From NCBI RefSeq assembly GCF_019203185.1, contig NZ_CP078093.1, positions 1,178,001 through 1,242,000 of the forward strand: a stretch of DNA of 64,000 nucleotides. The letters are read 5' to 3'. The translations under genes were made by a program, and so were the position numbers. Shown one piece after another: positions 202 through 9,460 of the stretch. Numbering within the stretch: the first letter of the stretch is position 1; every line of letters starts with the position of its first letter. The DNA comes from Crassaminicella indica (GTDB lineage: Bacteria; Bacillota; Clostridia; Peptostreptococcales; Thermotaleaceae). Below the pieces are notes generated by a model, which was not told the origin of the DNA, made no database searches, and saw only the letters and a program-made list of their open reading frames with translations.

Positions 202-783
202 ATGGGTATTAATTTATCAAAGGGACAAAGAATTGATTTAACAAAATCAGATCCTTCACTTAAAAAGATTATTGTAGGACTTGGATGGGATACTAATAAG
301 TATGCAGGAGGATATGATTTTGACTTAGATGCTTCAGCATTTTTAGCTGGAGAGGATGGAAAAGTTAAATATGATCAGGACTTTGTTTTTTACAACAACC
401 TAGAGGGCGGAAAAGGTTCTGTAATTCATACAGGAGACAATAGAACAGGAGAAGGTGATGGGGATGATGAACAAATAAAAATAGATTTTTCAAAAGTCCC
501 TGAATATATACATACTATTGGTATTACTGTTACAATTCATGAGGCAGAACAAAGAGGACAAAATTTTGGACAAGTTTCAAATGCTTATGTTCGTGTGATA
601 AATGAAGAAACAAATGAAGAAGTACTTCGTTATGATTTAGGAGAAGAATTCTCTATCGAAACAGCTTTAGTTGTTTGTGAAATTTATCGACATAATGGAG
701 AATGGAAGTTTAAAGCGATTGGAAGTGGATTTCAGGGAGGATTAGCTGCTCTTTGCAGAAATTATGGACTTCAAGTAGATTAA
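202..783 (+). CDS. TerD family calcium-binding stress protein
   Basis: This is a 193-residue protein, the usual length for TerD/TerE. It starts with the typical [15 protein letters not shown] and carries the acidic loops that bind calcium in the family: [10 protein letters not shown] near residues 40-49 and an acidic stretch [13 protein letters not shown] near residues 78-90. The family takes part in resistance to tellurite, phage, colicins and other envelope or chemical stress, probably as a cytoplasmic or membrane-peripheral scaffold. The ATG follows a strong AAGGAGG box (187-193). It forms an operon with the upstream TerD fragment and is closed by the hairpin at 796-828. TerD, TerE and the stress protein CABP cannot be told apart by eye, so no symbol is given. 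Confidence 0.93.
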
Positions 784-927: not shown

Positions 928-2118
928 ATGAGGTATTTTGATTATTTAACTGATGAGGAGATTAATGCTATTTTTTATTCTCCTCCAGAAGCTTTTCATA
1001 AAGATAGTTCAAAAGAAATAGTATCCTATGCTCTTGGTGCAGTTTTATATATGCCTGCTACTAAGGAAAACATTGTAAAGGATATCATACATAAAAAAAA
1101 TACAGGAATGGTATCTATGGTCATGTGCCTTGAGGATGCTATTGGAGATAAAGCTGTAAGAGAGGCTGAAGAAAAGGTATGTGAAAACCTAAATGCTTTA
1201 TCTATGGCTGTAAAAGATGGAAGGATAGATTATAAAAATATTCCTTTTATTTTTTTAAGAGTACGGGATGCTGATCAGATGCTTAGGATTGCAGATAAAA
1301 TAGGAGAAAAGCTTTCATTTCTTACAGGGTTTGTATTTCCTAAGTTTTCATGGAAAAATGGAGAGAACTTTTTTAAAAGCTTAAAAAATATCAATACTAT
1401 TTTAGGAATTAAGCTATATGGGATGCCTATTTTAGAAACATCGGATATACTTTATAAAGAGACTAGGATGGCATCATTAAAAGGGATTAGGAATATATTA
1501 GATGAATATGAAGAGTTAGTACTAAATATAAGATTAGGTGCAACAGATTTTTCAAGCTTCTTTGGTCTTCGAAGGGGTTATGATATGACGATTTATGATA
1601 TTTCTATAATCAGAGATTGTATTGTAGATATATTAAATTATTTTACAAGGGTGGACAAGGATTATGTTGTATCTGCTCCTGTATGGGAGTATTTTTCAAG
1701 TGGAGATAGAGTATTAAAGCCACAGCTTAGAACAACTCCTTTTGAGAAGACTTATGGACAAGAAGGTATTGAAGTTAGAAGAGAATTACTAAATGCTTAT
1801 TTAGATGGATTGATTCGTGAAGTTTTGTTAGACAAAGCTAATGGTTTTATTGGAAAAACTATTATTCATCCAAGTCATATTACTCCTGTACAAGCATTAT
1901 ATGTGATAAGCCATGAAGAGTATATGGATGCATTAAGCATTATAAAAAATAATGATGGATTGGTTGGAGTAATGAAAAGTCAGTATGAAAATAAAATGAA
2001 TGAAATTAAGCCTCATCTTAATTGGGCGAAGAAAATACTAAAAAAATCAAAAATATATGGGGTGTATCATGAAGGAGAAAATTTTACAAGCTTGCTTACC
2101 AAAAAGACACATTTATAA
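928..2118 (+). CDS. HpcH/HpaI aldolase / citrate-lyase-like C-C bond lyase (Ter cassette)
   Basis: This 396-residue protein belongs to the HpcH/CitE-like TIM-barrel lyases associated with Ter stress operons. Visible signatures are MVMCLEDAIGD (about residues 63-73, acidic metal ligands), FIFLRVRDAD near 110, RLGATDFSSFFGLRRGYD near 200 and KTIIHPSHITPVQAL near 310, the last being the CitE-like C-terminal motif. It is longer than ordinary CitE (about 290), as Ter-associated members are. It probably makes or splits a C-C bond in the synthesis of the nucleoside-like metabolite proposed for this module; the substrate is unknown. AAGGGG lies 8 bases before the ATG. The 3' end overlaps the next gene by about 50 bases in another frame, suggesting translational coupling. 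Confidence 0.85.
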   Translation: MRYFDYLTDEEINAIFYSPPEAFHKDSSKEIVSYALGAVLYMPATKENIVKDIIHKKNTGMVSMVMCLEDAIGDKAVREAEEKVCENLNALSMAVKDGRIDYKNIPFIFLRVRDADQMLRIADKIGEKLSFLTGFVFPKFSWKNGENFFKSLKNINTILGIKLYGMPILETSDILYKETRMASLKGIRNILDEYEELVLNIRLGATDFSSFFGLRRGYDMTIYDISIIRDCIVDILNYFTRVDKDYVVSAPVWEYFSSGDRVLKPQLRTTPFEKTYGQEGIEVRRELLNAYLDGLIREVLLDKANGFIGKTIIHPSHITPVQALYVISHEEYMDALSIIKNNDGLVGVMKSQYENKMNEIKPHLNWAKKILKKSKIYGVYHEGENFTSLLTKKTHL

Positions 2119-4555
2119 TATACTTAATGATTTACGTGTAGTTATAAATATTACAAAGAATCAATACGAAATTCCTTTGGAGTCGCTTTTTTCAATGGCT
2201 GCAAGAAGAAATAAAAAAAGAGGCTTTTTATTTGTCAGTAAAGTTCTTGGAAAGCATATTCCTGTTATTCCACAAATATCGTTACTGACGGGAGCTTTAC
2301 TTGCTAGAGCATTGATGAAAGAGGTCTATAAAATTGATGACTCTCATACAGAAGATATAGTTAAAGGGATAGTCGATCAAAAAGAATGTAAAAAAATATA
2401 TGAAAGTATTAGAAAACAGACTATCACACTACCAGAGAAGGCTTTATTGATTGGATTTGCAGAAACGGCTACTGCTCTTGGATATAGTGTTTTTGAAAAA
2501 CTTCAAAATGTTAGCTATATTCATACAACAAGAGAAGATATTTTAAACATAGCTTCAGAGATTAACTTTGAAGAGGAGCATTCTCATGCTACTACGCATA
2601 GATTTTATCCACTAGATAAGGACTTACTTCAGTCAAAAGAGCCTATTGTTTTGATAGATGATGAGATTACAACAGGAAAAACAGTAGTAAATATTATTGA
2701 AGCTATACAAAACAAATTTCCAAGAAAAAATTATGTTGTTTTATCTATATTAGATTGGAGAAAAGAAGAGGACATAAAAAGATACGAAGAACTAGAAAAA
2801 AGATTAGGGATAAAAATATACACGGTTTCATTAGTTTCAGGAACTATTGAGGTGGAAGGAAAGCCGGTAGATGATGTAGCTATTGAAAAAGAAAATAGAA
2901 AAGCTGTAGTAGAGTCGAAAATAAATGTTATCAGATTAGAGGAGCAATATTTTAAACAATTATTATTTTCATCTATAGATAGCCGAGGGAAAATAAATAC
3001 ATGTCCTTATTTAAAGGAGACAGGAAGGTTTGGCATAAAAAGTGAAGCTTGTGAAGAAGTTGGTCATGTATGTAGAAAAATAGGGGAACTTTTAAAAGTA
3101 AAAAGAAAAGGAAAAAAAACCCTTTGTCTTGGAACTGGAGAATTTATGTATATTCCTATGAAGATTGCAGCTTATATGGGTGATGGGGTATTATATCATT
3201 CTTCAACAAGAAGTCCTATTCATCCTGCTACAAAATCAGAATATGCTATTAAGAATGCTTATTCATTTAAAAGCCCTGATGATCCATTTATCATGAACTA
3301 TCTTTATAATATTCCTTATGGATATTATGATGACTGTTTTATATTTTTCGAAAGAGAAGTAGCTAAAGAGAGAATGGATGAGATTATGGAAACTTTAAGA
3401 AGCTTAGGTATTCCATATATCAATGTGATTGTATGCTCAAATAATTATAAATTGCAAGAACCTAGTAAAATGGGAAGCTATGATAAAGATGATGTTACTT
3501 TTTTGTTGAAGGATATAAGCAATATGATGGAAGAGAAGGGAACAAAGGAGCGAGAAAAATTAATTCAAAGTGGTATACATTATTCTGAAATGCTCCCGAA
3601 AGAATATAAGCCTACAAAGGAATATATAGATTTATTTCATATTTCTTTAAAAGAATCAGCTAAAAAGCTAAGCTTAGCTGTAGGGGTTGTTGCTGAAAAA
3701 ATAATAAAAAATAGAGGGGAAAACATTGTTATTGTATCATTAGCAAGAGCCGGAACTCCTGTAGGGATACTTATCAAACGCTATATAGCATATAAATATG
3801 GATTAGATATTCCTCACTATAGCATTTCAATCATAAGAGGAAAAGGAATTGATGAAAATGCTATAAAATATATTCTAAAAAAACATCCAGATAAAAGTAT
3901 TCAGTTTGTAGATGGTTGGACAGGAAAAGGAGCTATTACAAAGGTACTTGAAAAGGCATGCAAGGAATTTGAAGAAAAATACGGCGTTCATTTGAATGAT
4001 GATTTGGCAGTACTTGCAGACCCTGGATACTGCGTAGCTACATTTGGTACTAGGGAGGATTTTTTAATTGCTAGTGCATGTTTAAATGCTACTGTTTCAG
4101 GACTTGTGAGCAGAACTGTACACAGAAAAGATATGATTGGTCCAAGAGATTATCATGGAGCTAAATATTATAAAGAATTAGCTGACGAGGATGTATCGAA
4201 TCTATTTATAGATACTATTACAAAGGAGTTTGGAGCAGTAAAAGCTTTGGTAGCAGCAGCTATAAATGAAGTACAAGAAACTACGCCAACATGGGCAGGA
4301 TTAAAGGATATAAAAAATATTCAGAGGGTTTTTGGAATAGATGATATCAATCTTATAAAACCGGGAATAGGAGAAACTACAAGAGTACTATTGAGAAGAG
4401 TTCCGTGGAAAATTCTAGTAAAGGATATGAATAATCCTAATTTAAAGCACATTTTATTACTAGCAGAAGATAGAAATGTGCCAGTTGAAATCTATAATGA
4501 TATGACTTATCAATGCTGTGGAATTATAAAACCTTTAAAAGGAGAAGAAAAATGA
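2069..4555 (+). CDS. Double phosphoribosyltransferase fusion: PRTase-TRSP + StiP/PRTase-PELOTA (Ter cassette)
   Basis: A very large protein of about 828 residues with four recognisable parts. An N-terminal orotate-PRTase-like domain carries the PRPP loop VLIDDEITTGKTV near residue 195. A TRSP domain follows (LCLGTGEFMYIPMKIA, then HSSTRSPIHP near 380). Next is a second PRTase of the StiP type, beginning at GSYDKDDVTFLLKDI and including SLARAGTPVGILIKRY and the PRPP-like loop FVDGWTGKGAITK near 611. Last is a C-terminal PELOTA-like segment, LLRRVPWKILVKDM...LLAEDRNVPVEIY, of about 75 residues. In published Ter-operon surveys these pieces are described for separate PRTases; here they lie in one chain. 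I place the start at 2069, where GGGGTG precedes the ATG; an in-frame ATG also exists at 2057. It overlaps both neighbours and is clearly part of the cassette. Confidence 0.85.
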   Translation: MKEKILQACLPKRHIYNILNDLRVVINITKNQYEIPLESLFSMAARRNKKRGFLFVSKVLGKHIPVIPQISLLTGALLARALMKEVYKIDDSHTEDIVKGIVDQKECKKIYESIRKQTITLPEKALLIGFAETATALGYSVFEKLQNVSYIHTTREDILNIASEINFEEEHSHATTHRFYPLDKDLLQSKEPIVLIDDEITTGKTVVNIIEAIQNKFPRKNYVVLSILDWRKEEDIKRYEELEKRLGIKIYTVSLVSGTIEVEGKPVDDVAIEKENRKAVVESKINVIRLEEQYFKQLLFSSIDSRGKINTCPYLKETGRFGIKSEACEEVGHVCRKIGELLKVKRKGKKTLCLGTGEFMYIPMKIAAYMGDGVLYHSSTRSPIHPATKSEYAIKNAYSFKSPDDPFIMNYLYNIPYGYYDDCFIFFEREVAKERMDEIMETLRSLGIPYINVIVCSNNYKLQEPSKMGSYDKDDVTFLLKDISNMMEEKGTKEREKLIQSGIHYSEMLPKEYKPTKEYIDLFHISLKESAKKLSLAVGVVAEKIIKNRGENIVIVSLARAGTPVGILIKRYIAYKYGLDIPHYSISIIRGKGIDENAIKYILKKHPDKSIQFVDGWTGKGAITKVLEKACKEFEEKYGVHLNDDLAVLADPGYCVATFGTREDFLIASACLNATVSGLVSRTVHRKDMIGPRDYHGAKYYKELADEDVSNLFIDTITKEFGAVKALVAAAINEVQETTPTWAGLKDIKNIQRVFGIDDINLIKPGIGETTRVLLRRVPWKILVKDMNNPNLKHILLLAEDRNVPVEIYNDMTYQCCGIIKPLKGEEK

Positions 4556-5352
4556 TCTTTGCAAGCGACTTGGACAGAACATTAATTTATTCAAAAAAAT
4601 TCATTTCTAATAGAGAAGGTATTAAGCTCATTGAAAAAAAAGATGATGAAGAAATATCTTTTATGACAGAAAAGGCAATAAAAGAGTTAAAAAAATTGAG
4701 GGAAGAATTATTATTCATTCCTGTAACAACACGTACTATCGAACAATATGAAAGGATCACACTTTTTCAAGAGGAAGTACCTAAGTATGCAGTTGTTAGC
4801 AATGGTGGAAATATATTAATAGATGGAAAAATAGATGTAGAGTGGAACAATTCTATTCAAAGGAAAATAAAAGAGGAATGTCTGCCTTTTGAAGAGGTTT
4901 TGCTAAAATTTAAAGAGATTGCATCTAAGGAATGGGTTATAAAAAGAAGAACAGCTGATCAGCTATTTACTTACTGTATTGTTGATAGAAAGAAAATGCC
5001 TATAGAAAAAATATATAGCTTCATGGATTGGTTGGAGAAGAGAAACTGGAAGGTATCACTACAGGGACGAAAGCTGTACTTTGTTCCGCATTGTGTATGC
5101 AAATGGAGAGCGCTTCAATATATAAAAGAACAAGAAAACATAGATTTTATTATTTCGGCAGGAGATTCACTTTTGGATCTTCCCATGCTTAAACGAGCAG
5201 ACATAAGCTTTGCTCCTGCTCATGGAGAAATCTATAAAAGCTATAGAGCTGATGGAGAAGCAAAAAATATCATTTTTACAGAAAGGGAAGGTATTCTAGC
5301 TGCAGAGGAAATACTAGAAAAAATCAATAGCTATGCGAAGAAAGCAGGATAA
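4552..5352 (+). CDS. HAD-superfamily phosphatase of the Ter cassette
   Basis: This 266-residue protein has HAD motif I at the very N-terminus (SDLDRTLIY, residues 4-12), a motif II-like VTTRT, and motif III/IV residues in ISAGDSLLDLPMLKRAD near residues 202-218. It resembles Cof/sucrose-phosphatase-like HAD enzymes and is expected to remove a phosphate from the product of the preceding PRTases. The start at 4552 overlaps the upstream stop as ATGA and follows AAGGAGAAG; a longer in-frame opening from 4513 would lie inside the PRTase gene and push motif I away from the N-terminus. The exact substrate is unknown. A strong terminator follows at once. Confidence 0.87.
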   Translation: MIFASDLDRTLIYSKKFISNREGIKLIEKKDDEEISFMTEKAIKELKKLREELLFIPVTTRTIEQYERITLFQEEVPKYAVVSNGGNILIDGKIDVEWNNSIQRKIKEECLPFEEVLLKFKEIASKEWVIKRRTADQLFTYCIVDRKKMPIEKIYSFMDWLEKRNWKVSLQGRKLYFVPHCVCKWRALQYIKEQENIDFIISAGDSLLDLPMLKRADISFAPAHGEIYKSYRADGEAKNIIFTEREGILAAEEILEKINSYAKKAG

Positions 5353-5625: not shown

Positions 5626-7617
5626 ATGAAGAAAATCAATGAAGTTGGAATACGATTCAAGTTAATTGCAATATTTGTAATTCTTATTGCTTTGCCACTA
5701 ATGTGCTTGGGAATAAATGATTATTTGAAGTCGGTAAGTGTAACGGAAAGAGAACTAAAGGCATCTTCTGCACAGACAATAGAGCAATTAAATATGGCTA
5801 TTACAAATTATTTAGATGGTATTGAGATTTTTGTTGGAGTTATGTCTAATGAAGCAGATTTTGGCGAGATTTTTTCTGATCAAGATGAATTAGAAGAAGT
5901 AATGGAAAAATTCGAAAATTTTAAAAATATTCGCAAAGATATTTTATCTATATATATAGGAACAAAAGATAAAAAAGTATATCCTCAACCAAGAGAAAGC
6001 TATGATCCTACTCAAAGACCTTGGTACATAGAAGCTGTAAAAAAACAAAAACTAATATGGACACAACCATACAAGGATGAGTTTACAAAAAAATGGATTA
6101 TCTCATCAGCTAAACCTATATATGATGAAAACGATCAATTAGTTGGGGTATTAGCAGTAGACATAGGATTAGATACTTTAAAGGAAATGCTTAATGATGT
6201 AAAAATAGGAGAAAGAGGATACCCTTTTGTAATAGATAGTGATGGAAGAGTTATATTCCATAAAAATAAAGATATTATAGGAAAGGAGCTACCTATTGAG
6301 AAAGTAGCTCAAGCAATGGAAAAAGAAAAAAGTGGTGTTGCGAATTACAATTGGAAAGAAAACGGAATGATATATGAAAAATTTGCTGTATATACTACAC
6401 TAGATAAATTAAATTGGAAAATTGCTGTAGGAATGTATATAGATGAAATAAAAGAAAAAACGGATGATATTTTAAAACATGCTCTTATTGTGGGGAGTAT
6501 TTCTCTACTGATAGCTATAGGTATTGCATATGCATTTGCTACATCTATTACTAATCCTATCAAGACTCTTGTTCAAGACATGAAAAAGGTAAGTGAGGGC
6601 GACTTATCCATAAGGAGAAAAATAAAAAGAAAAGATGAAATCGGACAACTAGAATATCATTTCAATAGCATGGTAGGAGATTTAGCTAACCTTACAAAGA
6701 GGATAAAGGATGTATCTATGGATATTACAGCATCAGCTCAAAATTTAGCTGCAACTTCTGAAATGACTAATTCATCAGCTGAAGAGGTAGTAGCAGCTAT
6801 TGATAGTATTGCAAAGGGTGCAGCAGATCAGGCAGTTGATGCAGAGAAGGGTGTTAATCTTACCATAGAGTTAGCTGATAATTTTAATAAACTAGCAATA
6901 AATTTCGATCATATGAAAAAGTCTGCTGGACATGTGATGCGTACAAGTGAAGTAAGTATGAATATGGTCAATGAACTAAAAGAAAAAACAGAACTCAATA
7001 ATGAAGGTACGCAAGCTATTGAAACAGCTATTATTGATTTAGACAACAGGATAAAAGATATAGGAAATATATTAGAAACTATTGATGCTATTGCAGATCA
7101 AACAAATCTATTAGCACTAAATGCTTCTATTGAGGCAGCAAGAGCAGGAGAAGCAGGGAAAGGATTTACAGTAGTTGCTGAAGAGATCAGAAAACTTGCT
7201 GAAGAATCAAGAATTTCTTCTCATGAAATCAAAGAAATTATTATAAACGTTCAAGAAGAAAGTAACAATACTGTAGATATTATGAAAGAAGTAAAAGAAA
7301 GATCTAAAGGACAAACAGAAGCAGTTGCAGAAGTATACAGATCGTTTGAAAAAATATCAAATGAAGTTCATACGATAACAGAGAAGATTGAACAGCTTAG
7401 TGATTTTGCAAATCATTTAAAGGAGGAAAAAGATATTATTGTGAAAGCCATAGAAAATATTTCTTCCGTATCTGAAGAAACTGCTGCATCAGCAGAAGAA
7501 GTAAATGCTGCTGTTCAACAGCAAGCAATATCAGTAGGACAAGTTGCAACAGCAGCAGATCGATTGGATGAGTTGGCTATGAAACTCAATAATGATATGG
7601 AGAGGTTTACAGTTTAG
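5626..7617 (+). CDS. Methyl-accepting chemotaxis protein with Cache sensor
   Basis: A 663-residue transmembrane chemoreceptor. TM1 is at about 10-30. An extracellular double-Cache-type domain includes [19 protein letters not shown] near 125 and [15 protein letters not shown]2 lies at about 285-305, then a HAMP segment ([20 protein letters not shown]) and a long helical MCP signalling domain whose hairpin tip reads [20 protein letters not shown] at about residues 491-510. The family senses small ligands outside the cell and controls CheA. The ligand cannot be read; Cache domains of this sort often bind amino acids or organic acids. AAGAAGGGAAGGG precedes the ATG. About 270 bases upstream are AT-rich without a convincing promoter. 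It is monocistronic, ending at a bidirectional terminator shared with the next gene. Confidence 0.95.
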
Positions 7618-7625
7618 GTGATATA

Positions 7626-7664
7626 AAAAAACTCCACTATGGATTAAAATAGTGGAGTTTTTTA
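7626..7664 (+). terminator. Bidirectional terminator between two convergent chemoreceptor genes
   Basis: AAAAAACTCCACTAT pairs perfectly with ATAGTGGAGTTTTTT around an 8-base loop. A-run and T-run flanks let it work on both strands. Confidence 0.92.
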
Positions 7665-7671
7665 TAAGCTA

Positions 7672-9354
7672 TTAAATTTTGAAGCGTTCTACTTCTTTTT
7701 TTAAGTTTCCAGCTATTTCCTCTAAATGAGTTGCCATAGAAGATACTTCTTCTATTGTAGCTGTCTGTTCTTCAACGCTTGCACTTACTTCTTCTGTGGA
7801 AGCTGCTGCTTGCTCAGAGATAGAAGCTATACTTTCTATAGAACGAAATACAGATTCTTTATCATGGTCGATCTGTTCGATGCTTTGTGTAAGCTTTTCT
7901 ACCTGTTGAATATTTTTTTCAACAGTTTTTATTATGGCTTCAAAGGCATCTGTTGTTTGTATAGATGCTTTAGATGTATCAGAAACAATTTCATTTGCTG
8001 TAGCCATATTTTCATTAGCACTTTTTATGCTTGATTGCATTTCGGAGATGATATGCTGGATATCTTCAGTAGCTTTATCTGTTTGTTCAGCTAGTTTTCT
8101 TATTTCATCGGCTACTACTGCAAAGCCTTTTCCTGCTTCTCCAGCTCGTGCAGCTTCTATAGATGCATTAAGTGCTAAAAGGTTTGTTTGTGTAGCGATT
8201 TGTTTGATAGTATTTACAATATCTCCTACTAAGTCAGATTTATTTGATAATGTATTTACATTTTCATTTACTTTTTTTGTAATATTCAATGTATCATTGA
8301 TTTTCATTTTTAAGTTATATATGGAGTCCATACCTTGTTTACTTGTAGTACCAGTTCCTTCAATGTTTACTTTTACAAGCTTTGCACTTTCTGTAGTATG
8401 GTTTATTGCTTGTCCAAGACTTGATAGCTTTTCTATTCCTTCTGATGATGCTTTTGCTTGATCAGTAGCCCCTTGTGCTAATTCATCTGTAGCTTTTGCT
8501 ACTTCGCTAATGGTTATGGCTGTTTCATTGGCTGCTGTAGAAAGACTTTCTGAGTAATTATAGGTTTTTTCAGAATGATTTTTAATACTTATAATCATTT
8601 TTCTAAGAGCAGTTCTCATGTCTAAAATTGCATTTGCCATAATACCTGTTTCATCATTAGCTTTTTGTAAAGCATCATAAGTTGTATCCTCTGATAAATC
8701 TAAATTTGCAGTAGCGTTAATTAATTTTGATAATTCTGTGAGAGGATTTAGTAATCTACCTATTGCAATAAATAAACCAAGACCTATTATTATAAAGGCT
8801 ATGATTGATGAAATTATGGTTTTTTGAATTACAGCATTTATTGTTTTTTCAATGCCATAAATAGGAATACCTACATCTAAAGCACCTATATGTTTTCCAT
8901 TGATATATAAGGGAACCATAATATCATAGGTCCAAATTTTTTGTACATCTGCATAGAACTTAGAGGTTTTGATATTTCCATTTACTGCTCCATCTTCTGT
9001 ATAAGGATCATCTTTATAGACTTTGCCGAGCTTTTGACGATCGCTGTGTGCGATTGCTGTAACATTTTTGTCGATGATTATAGCATAGGCTATATTGTCT
9101 TGACTAGCTTTTTGTTCAACAATTTTTTGCATAATTTTTTGAGAGTTTATTTGATCATTTGCTACTCTACCTTCTATTTCTTTTTCTATTTCTTGAGCTA
9201 GTTCAATACTTTTTGTTAAAAGAGCTTCTTCCATGTTTGTCTTTACTGTATGTATGATGAGTGTTATCAATCCTGCAAGAATTAGTCCAAACATGAATAA
9301 ACAGAGGATAGTAATTTTAGATTTTAATGATTTAGTTTTAGAATGTTTTTTCAT
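7672..9354 (-). CDS. Methyl-accepting chemotaxis protein with single-Cache-like sensor
   Basis: About 560 residues. TM1 ([20 protein letters not shown]) is followed by a short extracellular domain of about 140 residues containing [23 protein letters not shown] and [22 protein letters not shown], typical of single-Cache sensors. Then come TM2 near 190, a HAMP region ([13 protein letters not shown]) and the MCP signalling hairpin [37 protein letters not shown] place the start at 9354 because AAGGAGG lies 6 bases upstream (complement of 9361-9367); a 7-codon longer reading from 9375 would include that RBS. Neighbouring chemoreceptor 9507-11531 has a similar sensor, so this may be a local duplication. 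The ligand is unknown. Confidence 0.95.
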
Positions 9355-9460
9355 AGGTGCCCTCCTTATAGACAATTTTCTTTATATTTTGATTATACTA
9401 GGAAAATGAATACACTTCAAATTGAAATTAGTTTATGATAGTATCAAGATGCAACATAAA

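Follow-up and report, generated by a model that had tools for sequence, protein, structure and literature searches.

Among described systems, the Ter-associated biosynthetic module (Anantharaman, Iyer and Aravind 2012), as set out in two citing papers (PMC8115787 and PMC7824862), comes closest to the locus presented here. A nucleoside-like product of this module is a published prediction, given in PMC8115787, and the Ter system of Acinetobacter jumbo phage ME3 is described in PMC7824862. The locus of Crassaminicella indica (NZ_CP078093.1, a single-contig genome of 2.76 Mb) likewise encodes a lyase, PRTase_2-TRSP, StiP-PELOTA and a HAD enzyme with TerD neighbours, but it differs from the described module in carrying both phosphoribosyltransferases (PRTases) in one chain and in being without a Ter ATP-grasp and without TerC. 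The window, meaning the whole stretch of DNA that was analysed, is 64,000 nucleotides long and its base 1 corresponds to genome base 1178001. The cassette is composed of three genes and follows a tandem of three TerD genes, two of which are located left of the window:

L002 10782-11360 and 11569-12180: first two TerD genes, left of the window
202-783, + strand: TerD-domain protein, third in the tandem of three (PF02342, 2.6e-85)
796-826, + strand: probable intrinsic terminator separating terD from the cassette, a hairpin whose 3' arm is U-rich (folding)
928-2118, + strand: HpcH/CitE-type C-C bond lyase of 396 aa (PF15617, 1.2e-125)
2069-4555, + strand: fused PRTase_2-TRSP-StiP-PELOTA chain of 828 aa (Pfam and full-length model)
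4552-5352, + strand: HAD-IIB (Cof/SPP-like) phosphatase of 266 aa (PF08282, 1.7e-10; HAD-IIB models)

The sequence-only reading had placed the lyase, the fused chain and the HAD enzyme at these positions in overlapping reading frames, behind TerD genes, and had assigned them to the Ter-associated module. The open reading frames and the Pfam matches of the cassette proteins, every one of which exceeds its cut-off, bear this out. The HpcH-like C-C lyase of the module is represented by PF15617, the PRTase_2 with TRSP by PF15609 and PF12500, the StiP/PRTase with PELOTA by PF11202 and PF15608, the HAD phosphatase by PF08282 and HAD-IIB models, and the TerD neighbours by the three upstream genes. 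The lyase and the fused chain overlap by 50 nt counting from the ATG at 2069, with another in-frame ATG at 2057, and the fused chain overlaps the HAD gene by 4 nt. Predicted catalytic motifs are conserved in all of the cassette enzymes, including E69, D70, R111, R113, E170 and D207 of the lyase (conservation of at least 97% in 65 homologues) and D6, D8, T10, K184, G204-D205 and D209 of the HAD enzyme (at least 97% in 87 homologues). The downstream neighbour of the HAD gene is a chemoreceptor, which lies outside the cassette. Chemoreceptor genes are found on either side of the Ter cassette (window 5626-9375, and L002 8819-10663 to the left), and upstream of the TerD genes L002 7284-8486 encodes a TnpB-like, transposon-associated protein of 400 aa that carries a CxxC zinc ribbon, recognised by eye only.

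One overlapping operon had been proposed for terD and the enzymes together, which holds for the three enzyme genes but not for terD. The gap between terD (202-783) and the lyase gene is 144 bp and contains the hairpin, which has a stem of 13 bp; folding of 781-840 gives -23.4 kcal/mol with z = -6.98. This hairpin was spotted by eye and then tested by folding, the terminator scan having missed 796-826. Because of the gap with its strong hairpin, and because the lyase gene is preceded by its own ribosome-binding site (AAGGGG), terD and the cassette are probably separate transcription units, and a single operon shared by the two is doubtful. A generic promoter scan gave results scarcely above shuffles and was left out of the interpretation.

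An ATP-grasp gene had been expected upstream of base 1, but none is located within 12 kb upstream and the genome contains no Ter-type ATP-grasp. The two PF15632 matches are to non-Ter ATP-grasps: the first is a 1073-aa protein that is CarB-sized, and the second is an enzyme encoded among surface-polysaccharide genes. A Metabacillus Ter ATP-grasp used as the query returned only the enzyme of the surface-polysaccharide locus (33% over 115 residues). Within the 61 related loci found by a scan that took one genome per species, an ATP-grasp is present near nine and is not universal. TerC (PF03741) of the Ter membrane complex is absent from the C. indica genome and from 16 of the 16 family genomes searched, and is present in 9 of 14 controls. 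The family keeps TerD and the biosynthetic cassette while TerC is missing (16 genomes). TelA is encoded elsewhere in the C. indica genome.

The domain search that had been suggested for 2069-4555 matched PF15609, PF12500, PF11202 and PF15608, and the chain is arranged as follows:

2186-2845, + strand: PRTase_2 domain, residues 40-259 (PF15609, 9.6e-72)
2645-2683, + strand: classical PRPP loop, within IVLIDDEITTGKT (residues invariant in PRTase_2)
3017-3397, + strand: TRSP domain, residues 317-443 (PF12500, 2.7e-42)
3398-3472, + strand: fusion junction, consisting of the TRSP end and a short ordered linker, where relatives have a stop and then a new start
3473-4219, + strand: StiP domain, residues 469-717 (PF11202, 3e-111)
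3905-3931, + strand: StiP loop FVDGWTGKG (residues invariant among StiP homologues)
4292-4531, + strand: PELOTA (L7Ae-like) domain, residues 742-821 (PF15608, 4.4e-36)

The full-length model of the 828-aa chain forms one confident body (pLDDT 92.0, pTM 0.87). In the PDB its closest folds are those of adenine and orotate PRTases, PyrR being a further match, and PDB sequence searches with the chain did not find a close solved relative. Within the PRTase_2 loop, D198, E199, T202, G203 and T205 are invariant in 21 homologues, and profile searches with this domain give weak matches to pyrE and PyrR. The PELOTA domain exhibits weak profile matches to L7Ae/eL8 with an E value of about 0.01.

The StiP-PELOTA region was also modelled with AlphaFold2 (pLDDT 90.2, pTM 0.91), and the StiP model has a type I phosphoribosyltransferase fold. 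Foldseek analysis matched it to PyrR and hypoxanthine-guanine PRTases with a probability of 0.99-1.00 and a best E value of 8e-5, the target-normalised TM-scores being moderate at 0.39-0.57. In 22 relatives there is little or no variation in the RAGxPxG, HYxxS and DGWTGKG stretches, and the D, W, T, G, K and G residues of FVDGWTGKG are invariant in 22 homologues, proteobacteria and phage included. This loop is shorter than that of known PRTases and has one acidic residue in D-G-W-T-G-K-G, where the PRPP loop has two. Profile-profile sequence comparison found no match of StiP to PRTase_2 or TRSP, so the assignment rests on fold and motifs, by which StiP is a divergent PRTase fold, its PRPP loop being atypical. 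The earlier proposal of two PRTases in one chain is upheld by the classical PRPP loop of PRTase_2 together with the predicted PRTase fold of StiP. Since the StiP loop is shorter and is missing the second acidic residue, its activity may be different from that of known PRTases, or lost.

The two PRTases are fused in 5 of the 61 related loci, belonging to two Marinisporobacter, Anaerophilus, Tepidibacter and Desulfonema. Nearly all of the other loci, mostly from Bacillaceae, encode them as two adjacent or overlapping genes with the order unchanged. In the family to which C. indica belongs, StiP is encoded by 10 of 16 genomes and all ten are fused, one of them being interrupted by a contig end. 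Within the order, where the count takes StiP genomes above the family cut-off, 18 of 42 are fused and are spread over five families; in the phylum sample the fusion is present in 1 of 21 StiP genomes, namely that of the window itself. The fusion also occurs in Desulfonema magnum, and the PRTases of Bacilli, plasmids and phage ME3 are encoded by two genes. Seven changes of the fusion state (bootstrap range 7-8), gains and losses counted together, are required on a tree built from 50 StiP-PELOTA sequences, and at least four of these are forced by well-supported branches; the fused Tepidibacter stands beside a split sister. A single origin of the fusion with no later change is ruled out by these numbers. 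In the fused members that were read, the junction is a short linker leading from the TRSP end to the GSY motif.

The sequence-only reading had named, as counting against its view, a fusion that is both frequent and already described, and the figures obtained for the order bear out the first half of this, the frequency. Repeated gain or loss among relatives makes the fusion a common variation of a known module and not a new system. The recurrent joining or splitting, with seven changes of state at the same junction, suggests that the two PRTases work together, in agreement with the joint role that had been drawn from the fusion.

The reading preferred here, to which we give about even chances, is a Ter-associated biosynthetic module with its two adjacent PRTase genes joined, whose chain would phosphoribosylate a precursor that the HAD enzyme dephosphorylates and whose product TerD would sense. 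A small precursor, a carbonyl compound or an acid, would be supplied or trimmed by the lyase; PRTase_2-TRSP would transfer 5-phosphoribosyl from PRPP onto a base-like acceptor, and StiP, held against PRTase_2-TRSP in one chain, would perform or gate a second PRPP/phosphoribosyl step. The PELOTA domain may bind RNA or the product and have a regulatory role. The HAD enzyme would then take off the 5'-phosphate to leave a nucleoside-like compound, which the TerD proteins are proposed to sense. The fusion would fix a 1:1 ratio and the contact of the two halves, which probably form a complex even when they are encoded as two genes. The module may not form one fixed pathway, because neither lyase nor TerD was found within 10 kb of the fused chain and HAD gene of Desulfonema, and because C. 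indica has neither TerC nor a Ter ATP-grasp. The natural fusion provides both PRTases in one protein at a fixed ratio, making the biochemistry easier to attempt.

The main rival is that PRTase_2 is the sole catalyst and that StiP-PELOTA is a PRTase-fold regulator, like PyrR or PurR, which binds PRPP or a nucleotide as well as RNA and controls the enzyme or the transcript. We regard this as possible and hold it tentatively: the best fold matches of StiP are to PyrR, an RNA-binding regulator, the loop is without its second acidic residue, and an L7Ae-like RNA-binding domain comes next in scanned members of both phyla, but the mean column identity of StiP-PELOTA is 57% against 41% for PRTase_2-TRSP in comparable sets, which exceeds the expectation for a regulator, and the loop is accompanied by invariant H, D and R residues. 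Joining of neighbouring co-translated genes can be neutral, and the fusion could likewise be a neutral stop-loss that is functionally uninformative. The genes touch or overlap in split relatives, the linker is short, and one Alkaliphilus genome holds a fused copy together with a split copy on a contig equal in length to its plasmid, all of which would suit a neutral origin; we nevertheless find it rather doubtful, given the repeated gain or loss at one junction and the retention of the fusion in 10 of 10 StiP-bearing genomes of the family.

An extended form of the biosynthetic reading concerns the TRSP domain. In the model, residues 351-455 of TRSP and 119-230 of PRTase_2 have an identical strand and helix order (beta-alpha-beta-beta-beta-beta-alpha-beta) when one four-residue helix is omitted, and profile comparison of TRSP with the PRTase_2 core gives an E value of 3.3e-4 over 77 columns, with 0 of 300 column-shuffled controls scoring as high. 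The hhalign probability is 38%, the score drops when the cut of PRTase_2 is lengthened, and 23.5 was reached by an unrelated HAD profile compared with 27.8 for the TRSP match; for these reasons the possibility that TRSP is a degenerate PRTase-fold copy without a PRPP loop is offered as a lead, short of a result. Such a duplicate arrangement would be reminiscent of the PRPP synthetase tandem. It is conceivable, though unlikely, that three PRTase-fold units (an active PRTase_2, its degenerate duplicate TRSP and a StiP with a reshaped loop) and PELOTA make up a single-polypeptide factory, in which successive glycosylations of a small precursor would give a stress nucleoside acting without TerC.

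The weakest reading takes StiP for a cysteine protease, as it is named in Pfam, NCBI and plasmid annotation, and the chain for one PRTase joined to a protease; conservation and fold lead us to reject it as highly improbable and to consider the label very probably wrong, because 22 relatives, drawn from firmicutes, a phage and proteobacterial plasmids, share no invariant cysteine (best columns 18/22), because the model matches PyrR and HGPRT at a probability of 1.00 with no protease in the Foldseek top 50, and because VSLARAGTPxG and FVDGWTGKG occupy the pyrophosphate- and PRPP-loop positions of PRTases. Replacing this label with PRTase would correct many PF11202 annotations.

The preferred reading, a Ter-associated module with joined PRTase genes, can be set beside a range of related cassettes. 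The lyase-PRTase-StiP-HAD order is found next to TerD in about 55 loci of Bacilli and Clostridia, and relatives of the chain are present in 2567 plasmid records, the listed places showing them annotated as individual genes. Rhizobium encodes the two PRTases with no annotated lyase or TerD nearby. Since both Desulfonema and Rhizobium keep the PRTases without lyase or TerD close to them, and since an ATP-grasp accompanies so few of the related loci, the PRTase pair, often with the HAD enzyme, looks like the core of the system, with lyase, ATP-grasp and TerC as optional additions. Both PRTase genes of Bacillus coahuilensis (L046 9989-12435) are fragmented, through either decay or sequencing error, with unbroken reading frames for lyase and HAD.

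The split Bacillaceae cassette of Neobacillus niacini (L010) shares the C. indica order of lyase, PRTase_2-TRSP, StiP-PELOTA and HAD along with TerD, and differs in having the PRTases in two genes and in being adjoined by TerC, YceG and TelA. Gammaproteobacterial ter plasmids, from Enterobacteriaceae and Pseudomonas (L095, L098 and L100), likewise encode the enzyme set beside ter genes, but in the order ATP-grasp, PRTase_2-TRSP, a third gene, StiP-PELOTA and lyase, and their chains are 28-37% identical to that of C. indica. The Ter cassette of phage ME3 has PRTase, HAD and StiP in common with C. indica and is split, with the HAD gene sitting between the two PRTases.
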